Source of the DNA: Candidatus Peregrinibacteria bacterium RIFOXYB2_FULL_33_20
GTDB lineage: Bacteria; Patescibacteriota; Gracilibacteria; UBA1369; GWF2-33-10
Direction of reading: 5' to 3'
Assembly (NCBI GenBank): GCA_001788835.1
Contig: MFXK01000001.1
Location: forward strand, 18,706 to 82,705
Length of the DNA stretch: 64,000 nucleotides
In this document: piece after piece, positions 17,157 to 59,821 of the stretch
How the letters are laid out: each line of letters opens with the position of its first letter
How positions within the stretch are numbered: position 1 is the stretch's first letter
The notes under the pieces: model-generated
The model's database searches: none
Told to the model about the DNA's origin: nothing
What the model saw: the letters and a program-made list of their open reading frames with translations, nothing else
Program-made: the position numbers and the translations under genes

Positions 17157-18410
17157 ATGCCCAAAATTGAACTGCTTGCCCCGGTTGGATCTTTTGCCTC
17201 GTTACAGGCCGCTATTAAAGCAGGTTGCGATAGCGTGTATTTTGGTGTTCATCAACTTCATATGAGAGCTAGATCTGCACATAATTTTAGCTTAGAGGAA
17301 TTAACTGAAGTTGTTAAAATTTGTAAAAAAGCAAAAGTTAAAACTCATATTACACTAAATTGTCTACTTTATGATCATGATTTGATTTTGATGAGAAAGA
17401 TTATTGATAATGCTAAATCTAAAGGGGTTGATGCGTTAATTGTTCAGGACGCTGCGGCAATTTCTTATGCTCAGGAAATTGAGATGCAGATTCATGGATC
17501 AACTCAGTTATCAATTTCGAATTTTGAGTCACTTAAATTTTACGCTAAATATTTTGATACAATTGTTTTGGCGCGTGAGTTGGATTTGAAAACGATCAAA
17601 TATATTTGCAATAAAATTAAAGAAGAACAAATAAAAGGTCCTTCAGGAAAATTAGTTAAAATAGAAATTTTTGGTCATGGAGCGTTATGTATTGCTCAGA
17701 GTGGCCGGTGTCAGATGAGTATTTTGCAAGCAAACGCTTCGGCTCAAAGGGGGGCATGTCTTCATGAATGCAGGAAAAAGTATAGAATTATTGAAGATGA
17801 AACTGGAAAAGAATTGATGATGGATAATGAATTTATTATGAGCCCGAAAGATTTATGCACGTTGCCATTTTTGGATCAAGTGGTGGATACTGGCATTAGT
17901 GTGTTGAAAATCGAAGGGCGTGGTCGATCAGCTGATTATGTTGATACTGTTATTCGCGTCTATCGACAAGCTTTGGACAGTATTGAACAAGAAAAATTTT
18001 CACAACACAAAGTAGACAAGTGGATGAAAGAACTTGAAAAAGTTTATAATAGGGGGCTTTGCGATGGATATTATTTGGGTAAGCCTTTACCTGATTTTAG
18101 TTGTGATTCAGGCAATAAATCGTCTGAAGAAAAAACTTATATTGGACAGATTCAACATTATTATGACAAAGCTAAAATTGCAGAAATTAATGTTTCCGCA
18201 CATTCTTTAGCCAAAGGAGATAGGATTGTCATAATTGGCAATACAACAGGAGTTATATATTCACAAGTTGAGTCAATGATGGAGCGGGATAAGTTTGTTG
18301 AAAAAAGTGGCAAGTCTAGTTTGATTACAATACCTTTAGATAAGAAAGTTAGGCATAATGATAAGGTATATGTGGTGAGGGAACGAAAAATTTTGAATTC
18401 TAAATTTTGA
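17157..18410 (+). CDS. Peptidase U32-family protein (collagenase-like / tRNA hydroxylation-type)
   Basis: KIELLAPVGSFASLQAAIKAGCDSVYFG; IFGHGALCIAQSGRCQMSILQANASAQRGACLHECRKKY. Confidence 0.88.
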   Translation: MPKIELLAPVGSFASLQAAIKAGCDSVYFGVHQLHMRARSAHNFSLEELTEVVKICKKAKVKTHITLNCLLYDHDLILMRKIIDNAKSKGVDALIVQDAAAISYAQEIEMQIHGSTQLSISNFESLKFYAKYFDTIVLARELDLKTIKYICNKIKEEQIKGPSGKLVKIEIFGHGALCIAQSGRCQMSILQANASAQRGACLHECRKKYRIIEDETGKELMMDNEFIMSPKDLCTLPFLDQVVDTGISVLKIEGRGRSADYVDTVIRVYRQALDSIEQEKFSQHKVDKWMKELEKVYNRGLCDGYYLGKPLPDFSCDSGNKSSEEKTYIGQIQHYYDKAKIAEINVSAHSLAKGDRIVIIGNTTGVIYSQVESMMERDKFVEKSGKSSLITIPLDKKVRHNDKVYVVRERKILNSKF

Positions 18411-45507: not shown

Positions 45508-46818
45508 TTACAACTCATTTACCCTTGGACTTAAGTAAATAGGTAGGTTTAAGATCTTATTTTTTGAATCGAAATGTGTATTGCCGGTATGAAATTTGAT
45601 TAACTTGCAATTAGGTATTTTTCTCCCAAATGAAATTAAAGATTTTGATATTTTATTTTTACCTGATTTAACTTCTATAGCATAAATATTTAATCCTTTA
45701 CTAAAACAAAAATCTACTTCAGCAGATCCTTTGTCTTGATCTATTGTCCAATAAAAAAGATCTAAATCTCCATGCAGATCTTGCGCTATAATATTTTGAC
45801 CCACCACTTGTTCAAAAACATTGCCTCTATAAAAACTTTCAAAATTCTGTAGATCAATATTAAATGGTATTTTGTAAACATAATTATAAAATCCGGTATC
45901 TAAAAAAAGTAATTTTTTAGCTCTTTTTGATTTTACTTGAAGAGGGACGGAAATTGAATTAGTGGAGTTAACGAGTTTAATTAACATAGCATGCTGTAAT
46001 ATATCCATAGCATTTGATACTTCTCTGCTTTTAATCCCAAGATCTCCAAAATTTTCATATTTAATTTTTGATCCACTATAAAATGGGCTTTGTCTAAGTA
46101 TTTTGGTCAAATATTCAATTTCAGATTTGTTTGCATATTTATTTATATCGTCTATGAAATTTTTCATTAAACTAGAATATATGCTTTGAACAGAATCAAA
46201 ATCACTATTCTCAATAAAGTTTTTTACAGCTTCAGGCATTCCGCCGATTAGAATATATTCTTTAAAAACCCCCATTGTTTTATTATGGATAGAATCAATA
46301 ATTTTTGCTCCAAGTTTTATATTTTGCAAATAATCCAATAATTCTTTTTCGCCTTTAGCCTCCAAATACTCAAAAAAATCCAAAGGATACATAAAAACAT
46401 ATTCTGTTCTTCCAACCGGCATTGATATTTTGGCTTGTTTTAATCTAATCTCAAGAAGCGAACCAGCACTTATAACATATAAATCAGGCCTTTTTTCGTA
46501 AAAGAATCTTAATAAAGAGATAAGATGTGGATTTTGTTGAACTTCATCAATAAAAATAAGCGTTCCTGTTTTTAATTGTTTATGTTTAAAAATCTGAACT
46601 TGTTTTTCAAAATCGCTTAAACTTATTTTTCCTTCAAAATTCATTGCGTCATCTGGATCTTCCATATTTATATACACATAATTATCAAAATTTTCTTTTG
46701 CAAACATTTCTACAGCACTTGTCTTGCCAATTTGCCTTGCTCCTCTAATAATCAGAGGTTTTCTATCCTTTTTTTCTTTCCAAAGCGTTAAATAACGAAT
46801 TATTTTTCTGTTGAACAT
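45508..46818 (-). CDS. AAA/DUF4143-family ATP-binding protein
   Basis: RKPLIIRGARQIGKTSAVEMFAKENF; FIDEVQQNPHLISLLRFFYE; C-term DLFYWTIDQDKGSAEVDFCF...AIEVKSGKN. Confidence 0.9.
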   Translation of the reverse strand: MFNRKIIRYLTLWKEKKDRKPLIIRGARQIGKTSAVEMFAKENFDNYVYINMEDPDDAMNFEGKISLSDFEKQVQIFKHKQLKTGTLIFIDEVQQNPHLISLLRFFYEKRPDLYVISAGSLLEIRLKQAKISMPVGRTEYVFMYPLDFFEYLEAKGEKELLDYLQNIKLGAKIIDSIHNKTMGVFKEYILIGGMPEAVKNFIENSDFDSVQSIYSSLMKNFIDDINKYANKSEIEYLTKILRQSPFYSGSKIKYENFGDLGIKSREVSNAMDILQHAMLIKLVNSTNSISVPLQVKSKRAKKLLFLDTGFYNYVYKIPFNIDLQNFESFYRGNVFEQVVGQNIIAQDLHGDLDLFYWTIDQDKGSAEVDFCFSKGLNIYAIEVKSGKNKISKSLISFGRKIPNCKLIKFHTGNTHFDSKNKILNLPIYLSPRVNEL

Positions 46819-47319: not shown

Positions 47320-47590
47320 TTAGAAAAATTTCATAAAATTAGTAGGATATTTTTTAATATATTTCTCAAACAATTGTTTGTCAATTTTTTTAAACCATTC
47401 TTCGTTGATATTTAAAGTTCGTTTTTTAAGTGCGATTAAATATAGCTCATCAAGAATAGCTTTTTCTTTTGTTGCGATTAAGGTGTTGCCAGCAATTTCG
47501 TATCCGAAAAAAACTTGACCAGTGAATGACAGCTCACCTATAGTAAAGTTGTTAGTTATGAGTTTTAAAATTATATTTTTATATATGCAG
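47320..47590 (-). pseudogene. C-terminal remnant of an AbiEi-like antitoxin/regulator
   Basis: Start-less minus-strand frame ...YKNIILKLITNNFTIGELSFTGQVFFGYEIAGNTLIATKEKAILDELYLIALKKRTLNINEEWFKKIDKQLFEKYIKKYPTNFMKFF*; GY.IA..EKAILDELYL pattern. Confidence 0.6.
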
Positions 47591-47608
47591 AAAAATTTAA
47601 ATAATAAA

Positions 47609-48619
47609 ATGACTAAAATATCTGATTTTATATTTTATAAAACAGCAAATGGTGAGGTTAAACTTGAAGTTTTTTTGCAAGATGAAACTGTTTGGCTTAC
47701 TCAAAAAATGATGGCGCAATTATTTGAAGTTGCATCTCATACTATTACTTATCATACTGGTGAAATTTATAAAAATGAGGAATTAATTGAAATTGCAACT
47801 CATCGAAAAATTCGAGCAGTTCAAAATGAAGGTTATAGACAAGTTGCAAGAGAGTTCGATTATTATAATCTTAATATTATTATTGCTGTAGGCTATAGAG
47901 TTAATTCTAAAAGAGCTACACAATTTCGTATTTGGGCAACCCAAGTTTTGAAAGAATATATTATAAAAGGATTCGTTATGGATGATGAAAGACTTAAAAA
48001 TCCTGATAATATTTTTGGAAAAGATTATTTTGAAGAGCAACTTGCAAGAATAAGGGATATTCGAAGCAGTGAAAGAAGATTTTATCAAAAAATTACTGAT
48101 ATTTATGCGCAATGTAGCGCTGATTATGATTTAAATGCGGAAATTACCAAACAGTTTTTTGCTACTGTTCAAAATAAATTACATTTTGCCATTACTGGTC
48201 AAACTGCGGCAGAAATTATTTATCAAAGAATTGATAGTAAGAAGCCAAATATGGGTTTAAACACTTGGAAAAATGCGCCAAAAGGAGTTATTAGAAAAAC
48301 AGATGTTATTATAGCTAAAAATTATTTAAATGAAAAAGAACTGGACTCTCTTAATAGAATTGTAACTATGTATCTTGATTATGCTGAAATGCAAGCACGA
48401 AAAGGAGCGGTTATGTATATGAAAGATTGGATAAAAAAATTAGATGCCTTTTTGCAATTTAATGAAAAAGAAATTTTGAGCGATAAGGGTAAAATTTCTA
48501 GTGAAGTAGCTTTGGCATTAGCAGAAAAAGAGTATGAAATTTTTCACAAAAAACAAAGCAAAAATTATATTTCTGACTTTGATATTGAAGTTGCGAAACT
48601 TTTAAAATTAAAAAATTAA
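47609..48619 (+). CDS. RhuM-family protein (start preferred near 47585/47609 rather than 47522)
   Basis: VWLTQKMMAQLFEVASHTITYH...REFDYYNLNIIIAVGYRVNSKRATQFRIWATQVLKEYIIKGFVMDDERLK. Confidence 0.88.
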   Translation: MTKISDFIFYKTANGEVKLEVFLQDETVWLTQKMMAQLFEVASHTITYHTGEIYKNEELIEIATHRKIRAVQNEGYRQVAREFDYYNLNIIIAVGYRVNSKRATQFRIWATQVLKEYIIKGFVMDDERLKNPDNIFGKDYFEEQLARIRDIRSSERRFYQKITDIYAQCSADYDLNAEITKQFFATVQNKLHFAITGQTAAEIIYQRIDSKKPNMGLNTWKNAPKGVIRKTDVIIAKNYLNEKELDSLNRIVTMYLDYAEMQARKGAVMYMKDWIKKLDAFLQFNEKEILSDKGKISSEVALALAEKEYEIFHKKQSKNYISDFDIEVAKLLKLKN

Positions 48620-50684: not shown

Positions 50685-50753
50685 TTATAAGATTTAGGAC
50701 TCTTTTAATATATAATTAAATTTACCTTAATTCAAAATTCAAAATTTAGAATT

Positions 50754-50905
50754 CCAGTGCGAAGCACTGGTTAGTATTGTCTCTGTGGCACTGGTCCGAT
50801 TTAGGTATTTCCCGTAAAAGTGATAGCTGTTAACTATTACAGTGTCTTAGAAGCTACTCGGACTTTCCTCCCTGTTTTGCGGGGCCACCATTAATGAAAA
50901 AGAGG
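50754..50905 (-). ncRNA. rnpB: RNase P RNA-like 5' half (truncated/divergent); boundaries approximate
   Basis: Minus strand GGGAGGAAAGTCCGAG (50859-50872 core), ...GGGAAATACC..., GACCAGTGCCACAGAGACAAT (50776-50796); 3' conserved half (GGTAAGAGC, AGAA..CGGCTTA) not found. Confidence 0.6.
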
Positions 50906-50984
50906 GATTTAATTTTAACAGAAAGTATATGTGTTTGGAAGATTTTTTAAAACCTTTCACCAAAATATTTATTACGAAAAAAAT

Positions 50985-56576: not shown

Positions 56577-57731
56577 ATGATAGATATAGTTTATGCCGCT
56601 TCCACGGTTGCCAGTGGAACTACGGATACTAATCAGGGGACAGCGGCGCTCACTCAATTTGCTAATTTTATTTGGGACAGGGTGGATAATTGGATGGCGG
56701 CGGCTGTGCTGATGTTTTTATCGATTTATTTTGCTAAATTTTTTAAAAACATAGTAGTGAGTAAAATTTCTGATAAACAGCTTGATGAAGCTCATGATGA
56801 TGTGATTGTGTTGGCTGGTAGAGCCACATATTTCGGTATTTTATCAGTGGGCATTACCATTGCTTTGAAAGTGGCTGGTATAGATATTACCGCGATTATT
56901 GCGGCCGCTGGATTTGGCATTGGTTTTGCTTTGCAGGATTTGATAATGAATTTTATTGCCGGGATTTTAATTTTATTAAATCATCCGTTTAAACTAGGAG
57001 ATTATATAAAAGTTAATGATATTACTGGTAAGGTTGTTGAGATACAATCCAGAGCTACAGTTTTACAGGGATTTGATGGTATAAGAATTGTTGTGCCAAA
57101 TTCTGATGTAATTAATAAGCAGGTTATAAGCTATACAAGCAATCCTTTTCGCAGAGTTGAGGTACTTGTCAGTGTTGATTATGGAGCAGATATAAAAAAG
57201 GCCATGGAAATTTGTTTGGCATTGGTTGAAGCAGATCCTAAAATAAATAAACAGCCAAAACCTTCCATTAACATTAGTGAATATGGTGATAGTAGTATTG
57301 ATATGAAGCTTTGGTTTTGGATTGATTCAAGATCTTCATGGATTAAAGCGAAAAGTCAGATTATGGAGCAGGTATTACACGCATTTGATGAAGCTAAAAT
57401 TGAAATACCGTATAATAAAATGGATATTAATTTATTTAAACCTGAAGATGCTAATTTGGAAAATTTGAAAGAAAATGATAATAAAAGTAAATCAGTTGCA
57501 GATATTGTGAAAAAAGTTGTAGCTCAAAAAAATGATTTTCATTCTGATTCCATTATAGAAGACAATGTGTCAAATGTAGATTTTAAGCAAGAAGTTAAAA
57601 GTGAAAACACAAGTCCAGTGCAAATAGAAAAAATTGAAATAGTTCATGCTCCATTAGTACAAGATTTTGTGATCCCACCAGTTGAGCAGAATAAAGATAA
57701 GAAGGGAGGGGATTTTTTGAATGGAATTTAA
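56577..57731 (+). CDS. MscS-family mechanosensitive channel (start preferred at 56577)
   Basis: VAGIDITAIIAAAGFGIGFALQDLIMNFIAGILILLNHPFKLGDYIKVNDITGKVVEIQSRATVLQGFDGIRIVVPNSDVINK. Confidence 0.94.
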   Translation: MIDIVYAASTVASGTTDTNQGTAALTQFANFIWDRVDNWMAAAVLMFLSIYFAKFFKNIVVSKISDKQLDEAHDDVIVLAGRATYFGILSVGITIALKVAGIDITAIIAAAGFGIGFALQDLIMNFIAGILILLNHPFKLGDYIKVNDITGKVVEIQSRATVLQGFDGIRIVVPNSDVINKQVISYTSNPFRRVEVLVSVDYGADIKKAMEICLALVEADPKINKQPKPSINISEYGDSSIDMKLWFWIDSRSSWIKAKSQIMEQVLHAFDEAKIEIPYNKMDINLFKPEDANLENLKENDNKSKSVADIVKKVVAQKNDFHSDSIIEDNVSNVDFKQEVKSENTSPVQIEKIEIVHAPLVQDFVIPPVEQNKDKKGGDFLNGI

Positions 57732-58438
57732 TTAATTCTCAACACCCCTCTAAACAAATCTTCCTCAATTGGTATTTGAACATCTTTTGGATTAATTTTT
57801 TTGTTGGTAAATTTCACAAGAGAGTTTTTGATTAAAGCCATTGGAATTGATTCTTTGCTTTCTCCCATGAGGACCAAAGCGGCGGAGCTTAGGCTGTCGG
57901 CTAGGTTTCTGGTTGTGTGTTTCAGAATTTTTCCAAAAAGATCTTTTTTGCCAATTAGATTTTCAACGCCAATGAATCCAGCATAACCAAGTGCAATTCC
58001 AGTTACACCACGACGAAGGGGAGTGCATTGCGAATCAGTTATTATAATCCCAAGATTTTTGATTTTGTATTTTTTCTTTAAATTTTTACAAAGTTTTTCA
58101 GCAAATTCATAAGGTTTGTTTGGCCAGAGGATAGCCTGATTTTTTGGAATATTTGATTGATCTATACCTCCATTGGCAATGAAAATACCATTTTTGATAG
58201 TGAGCCAGTTTGTTAGTGGATCTATGAAATCAGCTTCTTTTTTTACTAGTTTTTTGAATTCAAGATCTGATTTTATTTTAAATATTCTTCCTTGGTTTAA
58301 GGCAACAATTTTGGAGGCAATCACTAAAAGATCATTACTTTCAAGATTTAATTTTGCTTTTTTCAAGGCAGAATCAATTACATTTTGAAAATCAAAGTTT
58401 TTTTCTAAAACAGGAGTTTTAAGTGCAAAAATTTCCAT
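57728..58438 (-). CDS. F420-0:gamma-glutamyl ligase (CofE)-like protein (start preferred at 58438)
   Basis: DLLVIASKIVALNQGR; ILWPNKP; IIITDSQCTPLRRGVTGIALGYAGF; DLFGKILKHTTRNLADSLSSAALVLMGE. Confidence 0.85.
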   Translation of the reverse strand: MEIFALKTPVLEKNFDFQNVIDSALKKAKLNLESNDLLVIASKIVALNQGRIFKIKSDLEFKKLVKKEADFIDPLTNWLTIKNGIFIANGGIDQSNIPKNQAILWPNKPYEFAEKLCKNLKKKYKIKNLGIIITDSQCTPLRRGVTGIALGYAGFIGVENLIGKKDLFGKILKHTTRNLADSLSSAALVLMGESKESIPMALIKNSLVKFTNKKINPKDVQIPIEEDLFRGVLRIN

Positions 58439-58442
58439 AATT

Positions 58443-58613
58443 TTAATTTCTTGGAGCTGTTGTTGGGTTAGATCCGCCACTTACATCGGTTTTATCTGTT
58501 TCTGTGATTTCTTTATTTTGTTTTTCTTCAGTTGATTTGTTAAAAAGTTTACAAGATGAAAGTGAGGAAATTGTTAATGATAATATTGCTATATAAATAA
58601 TGAGTTTTTTCAT
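58443..58613 (-). CDS. Short lipoprotein (56 aa), not in ORF track; upstream of cofE-like gene
   Basis: MKKLIIYIAILSLTISSLSSCKLFNKSTEEKQNKEITETDKTDVSGGSNPTTAPRN*; lipobox LSSC. Confidence 0.7.
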   Translation of the reverse strand: MKKLIIYIAILSLTISSLSSCKLFNKSTEEKQNKEITETDKTDVSGGSNPTTAPRN

Positions 58614-58728: not shown

Positions 58729-58761
58729 GGCTGGGGCTGATAATGGTGGTTAGAAGATGTT
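58729..58761. repeat. Direct repeat copy 1 flanking fic
   Basis: GGCTGGGGCTGATAATGGTGGTTAGAAGATGTT. Confidence 0.6.
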
Positions 58762-59821
58762 AAAAAGATTTCCATCTGCTCGCTCTACCAAGCCCTTGCA
58801 TTTTTGCTAAATTTAAAAATTTAAGTCTTTGAAGAATCTTTTTTACAGTTTCTCTATTAATATTTGTATTTATTGATATTTCTTGGGTAGTTAATGTTTT
58901 TTTTGAATTTTTTAAATAATTTAGTATTTGTAGCTGATTTTCTGATAATTCATTTTCTATATCTTTTTTTTCTAAAATATTTTTTGCTAAATCAGTTTGC
59001 TTAATCAAGCAGTCCAAAAAAAAGTTTATCCATATATTTAAATTTTCAGCTTTTGTTTTCCTATCTTTTTGACTAGCTCTGAGAGATAAATAGTAATCTT
59101 TTTTATTGTCTTCTATTATTTTTTCCAGAGAAACATATTTTATATAATCGAAGCCGTTTTTTAATAAAAATAAATTTGTCAGACTTCGAGACAACCTACC
59201 ATTGCCATCTTGAAAAGGGTGTATCGATAAAAATTCACATGCAAATAAGGATATGATGAGTAGTGGATGAAATTTTTTAAATCTTAATGATTCATTAGTA
59301 AAAGAAAGTAAATCTTCCATCTCCTTTTCTACCAAATATGGGGGCGTTGGGTTAAAAACAAGACTTGCTTTGCCTTCCATATCTTTTGCAATTACTGCAT
59401 TTGATAAGGTTTTATATTTACCTTTATGAAATTCATCTTTATTAGAATATTTGAGGAGTATTGAATGTAAATGCTTAATATTATTTTGCGTTAAATTAAT
59501 ATTTTTAAATTCATCAAAAATTAGTTTAGTGAGTTCGGCATATCCTGCAACCTCTTGAGAACTCCTATCTCTTAATTTTTTTATATTAATATTATTCAAC
59601 AGTTTTTCTACTTCGCTATCTGAAAGTAAAGATCCTTCGATTCTGGTTGAAGCTCCTGATGATGTTATTATTACAGTTTTTTTAAGTCTTCCAAGAATTT
59701 GTGGACTTATATTAAGGCTACCTTTCCAAAAACCATTAAAATTATCTATTATTGAGAGTTTATTTTGAATAATAGATAAATCTTTGCTTTTTAAAGATAA
59801 TAATTTTGATAGCCTTTCCAT
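58760..59821 (-). CDS. Fic-domain protein with N-terminal inhibitory motif and C-terminal wHTH
   Basis: HPFQDGNGRLSRSL; inhibitory helix-type STRIEG; C-term LTTQEISINTNINRETVKKILQRL. Confidence 0.93.
   Translation of the reverse strand: MERLSKLLSLKSKDLSIIQNKLSIIDNFNGFWKGSLNISPQILGRLKKTVIITSSGASTRIEGSLLSDSEVEKLLNNINIKKLRDRSSQEVAGYAELTKLIFDEFKNINLTQNNIKHLHSILLKYSNKDEFHKGKYKTLSNAVIAKDMEGKASLVFNPTPPYLVEKEMEDLLSFTNESLRFKKFHPLLIISLFACEFLSIHPFQDGNGRLSRSLTNLFLLKNGFDYIKYVSLEKIIEDNKKDYYLSLRASQKDRKTKAENLNIWINFFLDCLIKQTDLAKNILEKKDIENELSENQLQILNYLKNSKKTLTTQEISINTNINRETVKKILQRLKFLNLAKMQGLGRASRWKSF

Follow-up and report, generated by a model that had tools for sequence, protein, structure and literature searches.

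A probable relict of the RNase P RNA gene (rnpB) ahead of a sugar transferase gene in a Candidatus Peregrinibacteria genome that carries a complete rnpB on another contig

The stretch of DNA analysed in this work (the window) comprises 64,000 nt of contig MFXK01000001.1 from Candidatus Peregrinibacteria bacterium RIFOXYB2_FULL_33_20. On its minus strand, positions 50754-50906 correspond to a class A RNase P RNA of which only the 5' half is present, up to and including a P12-type hairpin. The fragment begins with the 5' strands of P1 and P2 (50885-50906, minus strand, as are all features of the locus), which align with the 5' end of the complete rnpB of the same genome described below and whose partner strands are missing. 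These are followed by a shortened P3-type hairpin, read directly from the sequence as CCCCG-CAAAA-CAGGG with one C-A mismatch (50870-50884; the stem in the complete copy is longer and perfect), and by the conserved region GGGAGGAAAGTCCGAG, which includes the 5' strand of P4 (50857-50872) and was located by the RF00010 alignment and an alignment with 20 other rnpB sequences. The P8 hairpin (50823-50837) was placed by the RF00010 and rnpB alignments, and the P9 hairpin (50800-50819) is broken in the alignment by one extra and one lost base relative to the complete copy. The conserved GACCAGTGCCACAGAGACAATA (50775-50796), carrying the 5' strands of P10 and P11 and the region that follows, is identical to the complete copy, and the last part of the remnant (50754-50770) occupies the P12 position in the RF00010 alignment. 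The fragment has T where 20 of 20 other aligned rnpB sequences have C. Directly after P12 lies a 25-nt dispersed repeat of the AATTTTG type (50729-50753), and 44 nt beyond the repeat is the gene for a 473-aa sugar transferase (PF02397; 49263-50684), which is on the same strand and has the fragment 69 nt upstream. The 5' RNase P motifs quoted in a first-pass annotation of this DNA were all found on the minus strand, and the CCAGTGC-TTC-GCACTGG hairpin and the 25-nt repeat that it described are likewise present, the former being the P12 hairpin.

Across 109 nt the fragment and the rnpB of its own genome are 87% identical (E=8.9e-29), and the likeness to RNase P RNA is not due to chance. A scan of the window with RF00010 at the gathering threshold (score 100) gave no match; in the Infernal comparison that the first-pass annotation had proposed, the segment does match the model, with 14.9 bits (E 0.009-0.013), a score well under the gathering score because half of the model is missing. 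Compared with the class A RNase P RNA of RF00010, the fragment shares the part between P1 and P12 (the 5' half), including the conserved motifs, and is homologous to the genome's own rnpB, whereas the 3' half, the 3' conserved region and complete P4, P5, P7, P10 and P11 helices are lacking. Three properties of a functional class A ribozyme are wanting: the score is 14.9 against 100, only the 5' strand of P4 is retained while the region of its 3' strand is absent, and the conserved 3' half (ACAGAA..CGGCUUA region) is found neither downstream of the fragment nor as a separate copy.

A complete rnpB is located on another contig of the same genome (G000:C6:61129-61529; RF00010 155.8 bits, model positions 1-367), with topA on one side and an MgtC/DUF4010 gene on the other. 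By direct reading, P4 of this copy carries A in its 5' strand and U in its 3' strand at the place of a G and a C in the relative G001, a paired change as would be expected for a working RNA, and the C6 copy is presumably the working one. Contig C6 is unlikely to be a contaminant, because the dispersed repeats of the window's contig are also found on it. When the whole assembly was searched with the 3' half as query, the complete gene was the sole true match and no second 3' half was detected; all remaining hits were short chance or repeat matches, e.g. the CGAAGCTTTAGC palindrome. The absence of the 3' half noted in the first pass holds at the locus, and the rest of the assembly contains no separate copy. 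That annotation had also offered a split or minimal RNase P among its options. An RNase P RNA working in two pieces would be in keeping with the intact conserved 5' motifs, but it is hardly conceivable next to a complete rnpB, with no separate 3' half and with all the long-range core helices lacking a partner strand. A pseudogene, the option tied there to a complete rnpB elsewhere, proved to be the right one.

In 71 of the 81 order genomes with an rnpB, for which all rnpB and sugar transferase positions were compared, rnpB lies directly upstream of a PF02397 sugar transferase gene on the same strand, with gaps of 10-507 nt, and the gene after rnpB is a homologue of the one that follows the fragment. 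The named relatives with this arrangement are mostly Candidatus Peregrinibacteria; the same arrangement occurs at loci labelled Falkowbacteria, Buchananbacteria and Parcubacteria, i.e. other Patescibacteria, and the two genes are possibly in one transcript. Neither topA nor an MgtC/DUF4010 gene was found near rnpB at the other rnpB loci compared (about 1.5 kb on each side). Because rnpB precedes the sugar transferase gene in 71 of 81 genomes and no other rnpB locus compared lies near topA or an MgtC/DUF4010 gene, the fragment would be the truncated original rnpB at its ancestral place and the C6 copy the one that moved. The reverse, in which the C6 gene would be the original and a partial copy of rnpB would have been inserted at this site, would also account for the close relationship of the two copies; it is highly improbable, given that the site is the usual place of rnpB and that the C6 neighbours have no counterpart at the loci compared. 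Homology to rnpB with essential parts gone, a complete copy of functional appearance at another site of the genome and a position at the ancestral locus are the marks of an rnpB relict, and each was found for the fragment; the identification of the original gene at its ancestral locus goes beyond the view taken in the first-pass annotation.

Five further loci at which rnpB does not immediately precede the sugar transferase gene contained no rnpB remnants, and no comparable truncated form of rnpB occurs in any other genome examined. An apparent second rnpB in G053 consists of two overlapping contig-end pieces of one gene, and second matches in G017 and G069 (92-98 nt, 13-14 bits) were judged to be due to chance. 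Five genomes of the order (G014, G032, G034, G074 and G080) gave no RF00010 match despite 83-100% completeness, perhaps because their RNA has diverged beyond the reach of the filters applied. The open papers searched contained no account of this case, nor of rnpB and the sugar transferase gene as neighbours.

Across the shared 5' half, identity is 82.5% between fragment and C6 copy, 71.2% between fragment and G001, 73.8% between C6 copy and G001, and at most 68% between the fragment and the rest; by identity, the fragment and the C6 copy are each other's closest sequences. In the tree, the fragment, the C6 copy, G001 and G007 are grouped with support 98/94, the order within the group not being separated, and the branch lengths of fragment and C6 copy are 0.11 and 0.10. 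Because of this supported grouping and the identity values, the C6 copy would derive from a duplication in the lineage or from import from a close relative, between which the data do not distinguish. Only two of the 19 differences between fragment and C6 copy fall in nearly invariant columns, which make up 38 of the 104 columns (p=0.007); among the changes assigned to the fragment it is one of seven (p=0.20, a weak signal). Since the branch lengths are equal and the differences lie mostly at variable columns, the comparison suggests that the truncation is recent, and the simplest reading would be that the fragment was still an intact gene during most of the period after the two copies diverged, the loss of its 3' half being a recent event. 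The little-decayed state of the retained half fits a recent truncation and would also fit continued selection. The only same-family genome compared, G001, has a completeness of 73%, and the contig with its rnpB stops shortly after that gene, which keeps the truncation from being dated within the family. The end of that contig reads ATGAAA on the coding strand, which is consistent with, though not proof of, the same downstream neighbour as elsewhere.

P12 is immediately followed by the break, past which comes the heptamer repeat found genome-wide: in the 1.5-Mb genome there are 11 exact copies and, with <=3 mismatches allowed, 56 matches in forward and 52 in reverse orientation, where a control pattern gave 0 and 1. 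The dispersed nature of the repeat, proposed in the first pass, is borne out by these roughly 108 near copies. In the window, AATTTTG-type heptamer repeats occur at 18396, 23125, 36911, 40122, 43915 and 50729. In G001, a similar AAATTTTGATTTTGA stretch lies downstream of rnpB, ahead of where the next gene probably starts, and a deletion running from P12 into such a repeat of the spacer is likely; that it came about by recombination or slippage between copies of the repeat is a guess. Downstream of the break, the 7-nt AAAAGAG at 50700-50706 could be a trace of the 3' strand of P1, such a match not being rare in AT-rich DNA. The P12 hairpin was rejected as a dispersed element, its 13-nt core having only one exact copy, and a viral origin found no support in that the exact 33-nt pattern was not found in viral contigs. 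Vioque reportedly described, in 1997 (as cited in PMC2858038), STRR heptamer repeats within the rnpB of heterocyst-forming cyanobacteria. Short tandem repeats are tied to rnpB in both settings; here the repeat marks a truncation instead of lying inside a working gene.

A break at a repeat is also what a misassembly, another of the first-pass options, or strain mixture could produce, the 5' half being joined at the repeat to the sugar transferase flank while the true locus holds an intact rnpB. This is the main rival explanation; in its favour, the break falls on a repeat that has 11 exact copies, and a repeat-caused error that hid the RNase P RNA of a CPR genome is on record (PMC8172020). It is nevertheless unlikely: the fragment differs by 17% from the C6 rnpB and so cannot be a piece of that gene put in the wrong place, neither a matching 3' half nor a broken contig end turned up, the gene downstream is the expected ancestral neighbour, and the repeat is only 25 nt long.

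The remnant retains local hairpins only, i.e. P3 (shortened and mismatched), P8, P9 and P12. Ribozyme activity is not expected from this sequence, because the 3' strands of P4, P5, P7, P10 and P11 are gone and every long-range core helix is without a partner. The first-pass annotation had pointed out that GTCCGA has an internal complement TCGGAC by which the short RNA could fold on its own; this pairing is present and forms part of the predicted structure, but that structure is no better than those of shuffled sequences (z -1.37; 24 of 200 shuffles as good), and self-folding was set aside as evidence for function. In the promoter comparison, promoter-like sites at the fragment were no more than at chance level. 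These results bear on a further possibility, akin to the derived regulatory RNA listed in the first pass, namely that selection maintains the 5' half as a structured 5' leader or small RNA that controls the sugar transferase gene downstream, in which case an RNase P RNA would have been turned into a regulatory element. The same-strand position just upstream of that gene, the persistence of local hairpins and the tendency of the differences to avoid invariant columns would agree with it. Such a role is very unlikely, as neither fold nor promoter-like sites stand out, conservation is not demonstrable where the other genomes examined hold no comparable truncated form, and a recent truncation accounts for the pattern equally well.

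We consider the fragment to be, with a probability of roughly 0.85, the relict (pseudogene) of the original rnpB left at its ancestral locus after the gene had moved. A second rnpB would have become established on C6 between topA and the MgtC/DUF4010 gene, either through duplication within the lineage or through acquisition from a close relative. This would have made the original redundant, and all of its sequence 3' of P12 would then have been lost, probably in a single deletion that had one of its ends at the AATTTTG-type dispersed repeat in the spacer. RNase P RNA pseudogenes have been reported in animal genomes (Bcheck, PMC2996960), which share with this case an extra non-functional copy besides one functional copy; here, in contrast, the relict occupies the ancestral locus, in a bacterium, and it is the functional-looking copy that was relocated. 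The diverged RNase P RNAs of CPR bacteria, with helices missing or extended, are the sole copies in their genomes (PMC8172020). They come from the same broad bacterial group and also score low, but in the present genome the catalytic core is missing from the fragment and a normal copy is present. The case is a tidy yet ordinary gene relic, in which an essential single-copy RNA gene would have been relocated and its old copy caught half lost. A partial RNase P match in a CPR genome thus need not imply a reduced enzyme, and the long-lived rnpB-sugar transferase neighbourhood in Patescibacteria is a practical aid for finding or verifying rnpB where covariance models score poorly.

A palindrome, CCGAAGCTTTAGCGTAGG, is dispersed in 12 copies (<=3 mismatches), one of which lies within the complete rnpB, close to the 3' end of the gene (C6 61164-61181). 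By direct reading it also adjoins tRNA-like sequences on C10 and C36, and in the rnpB of G001 the P12 hairpin consists of a similar sequence. Elsewhere in the window, typical accessory genes encode an AAA_14/DUF4143 protein (45508-46818), a RhuM-family protein (47522-48619) and a Fic-family protein (58760-59821), and positions 57728-58480 encode a protein with an F420-0:gamma-glutamyl ligase domain (PF01996, E=1e-43), here in a CPR-type bacterium with a small genome.
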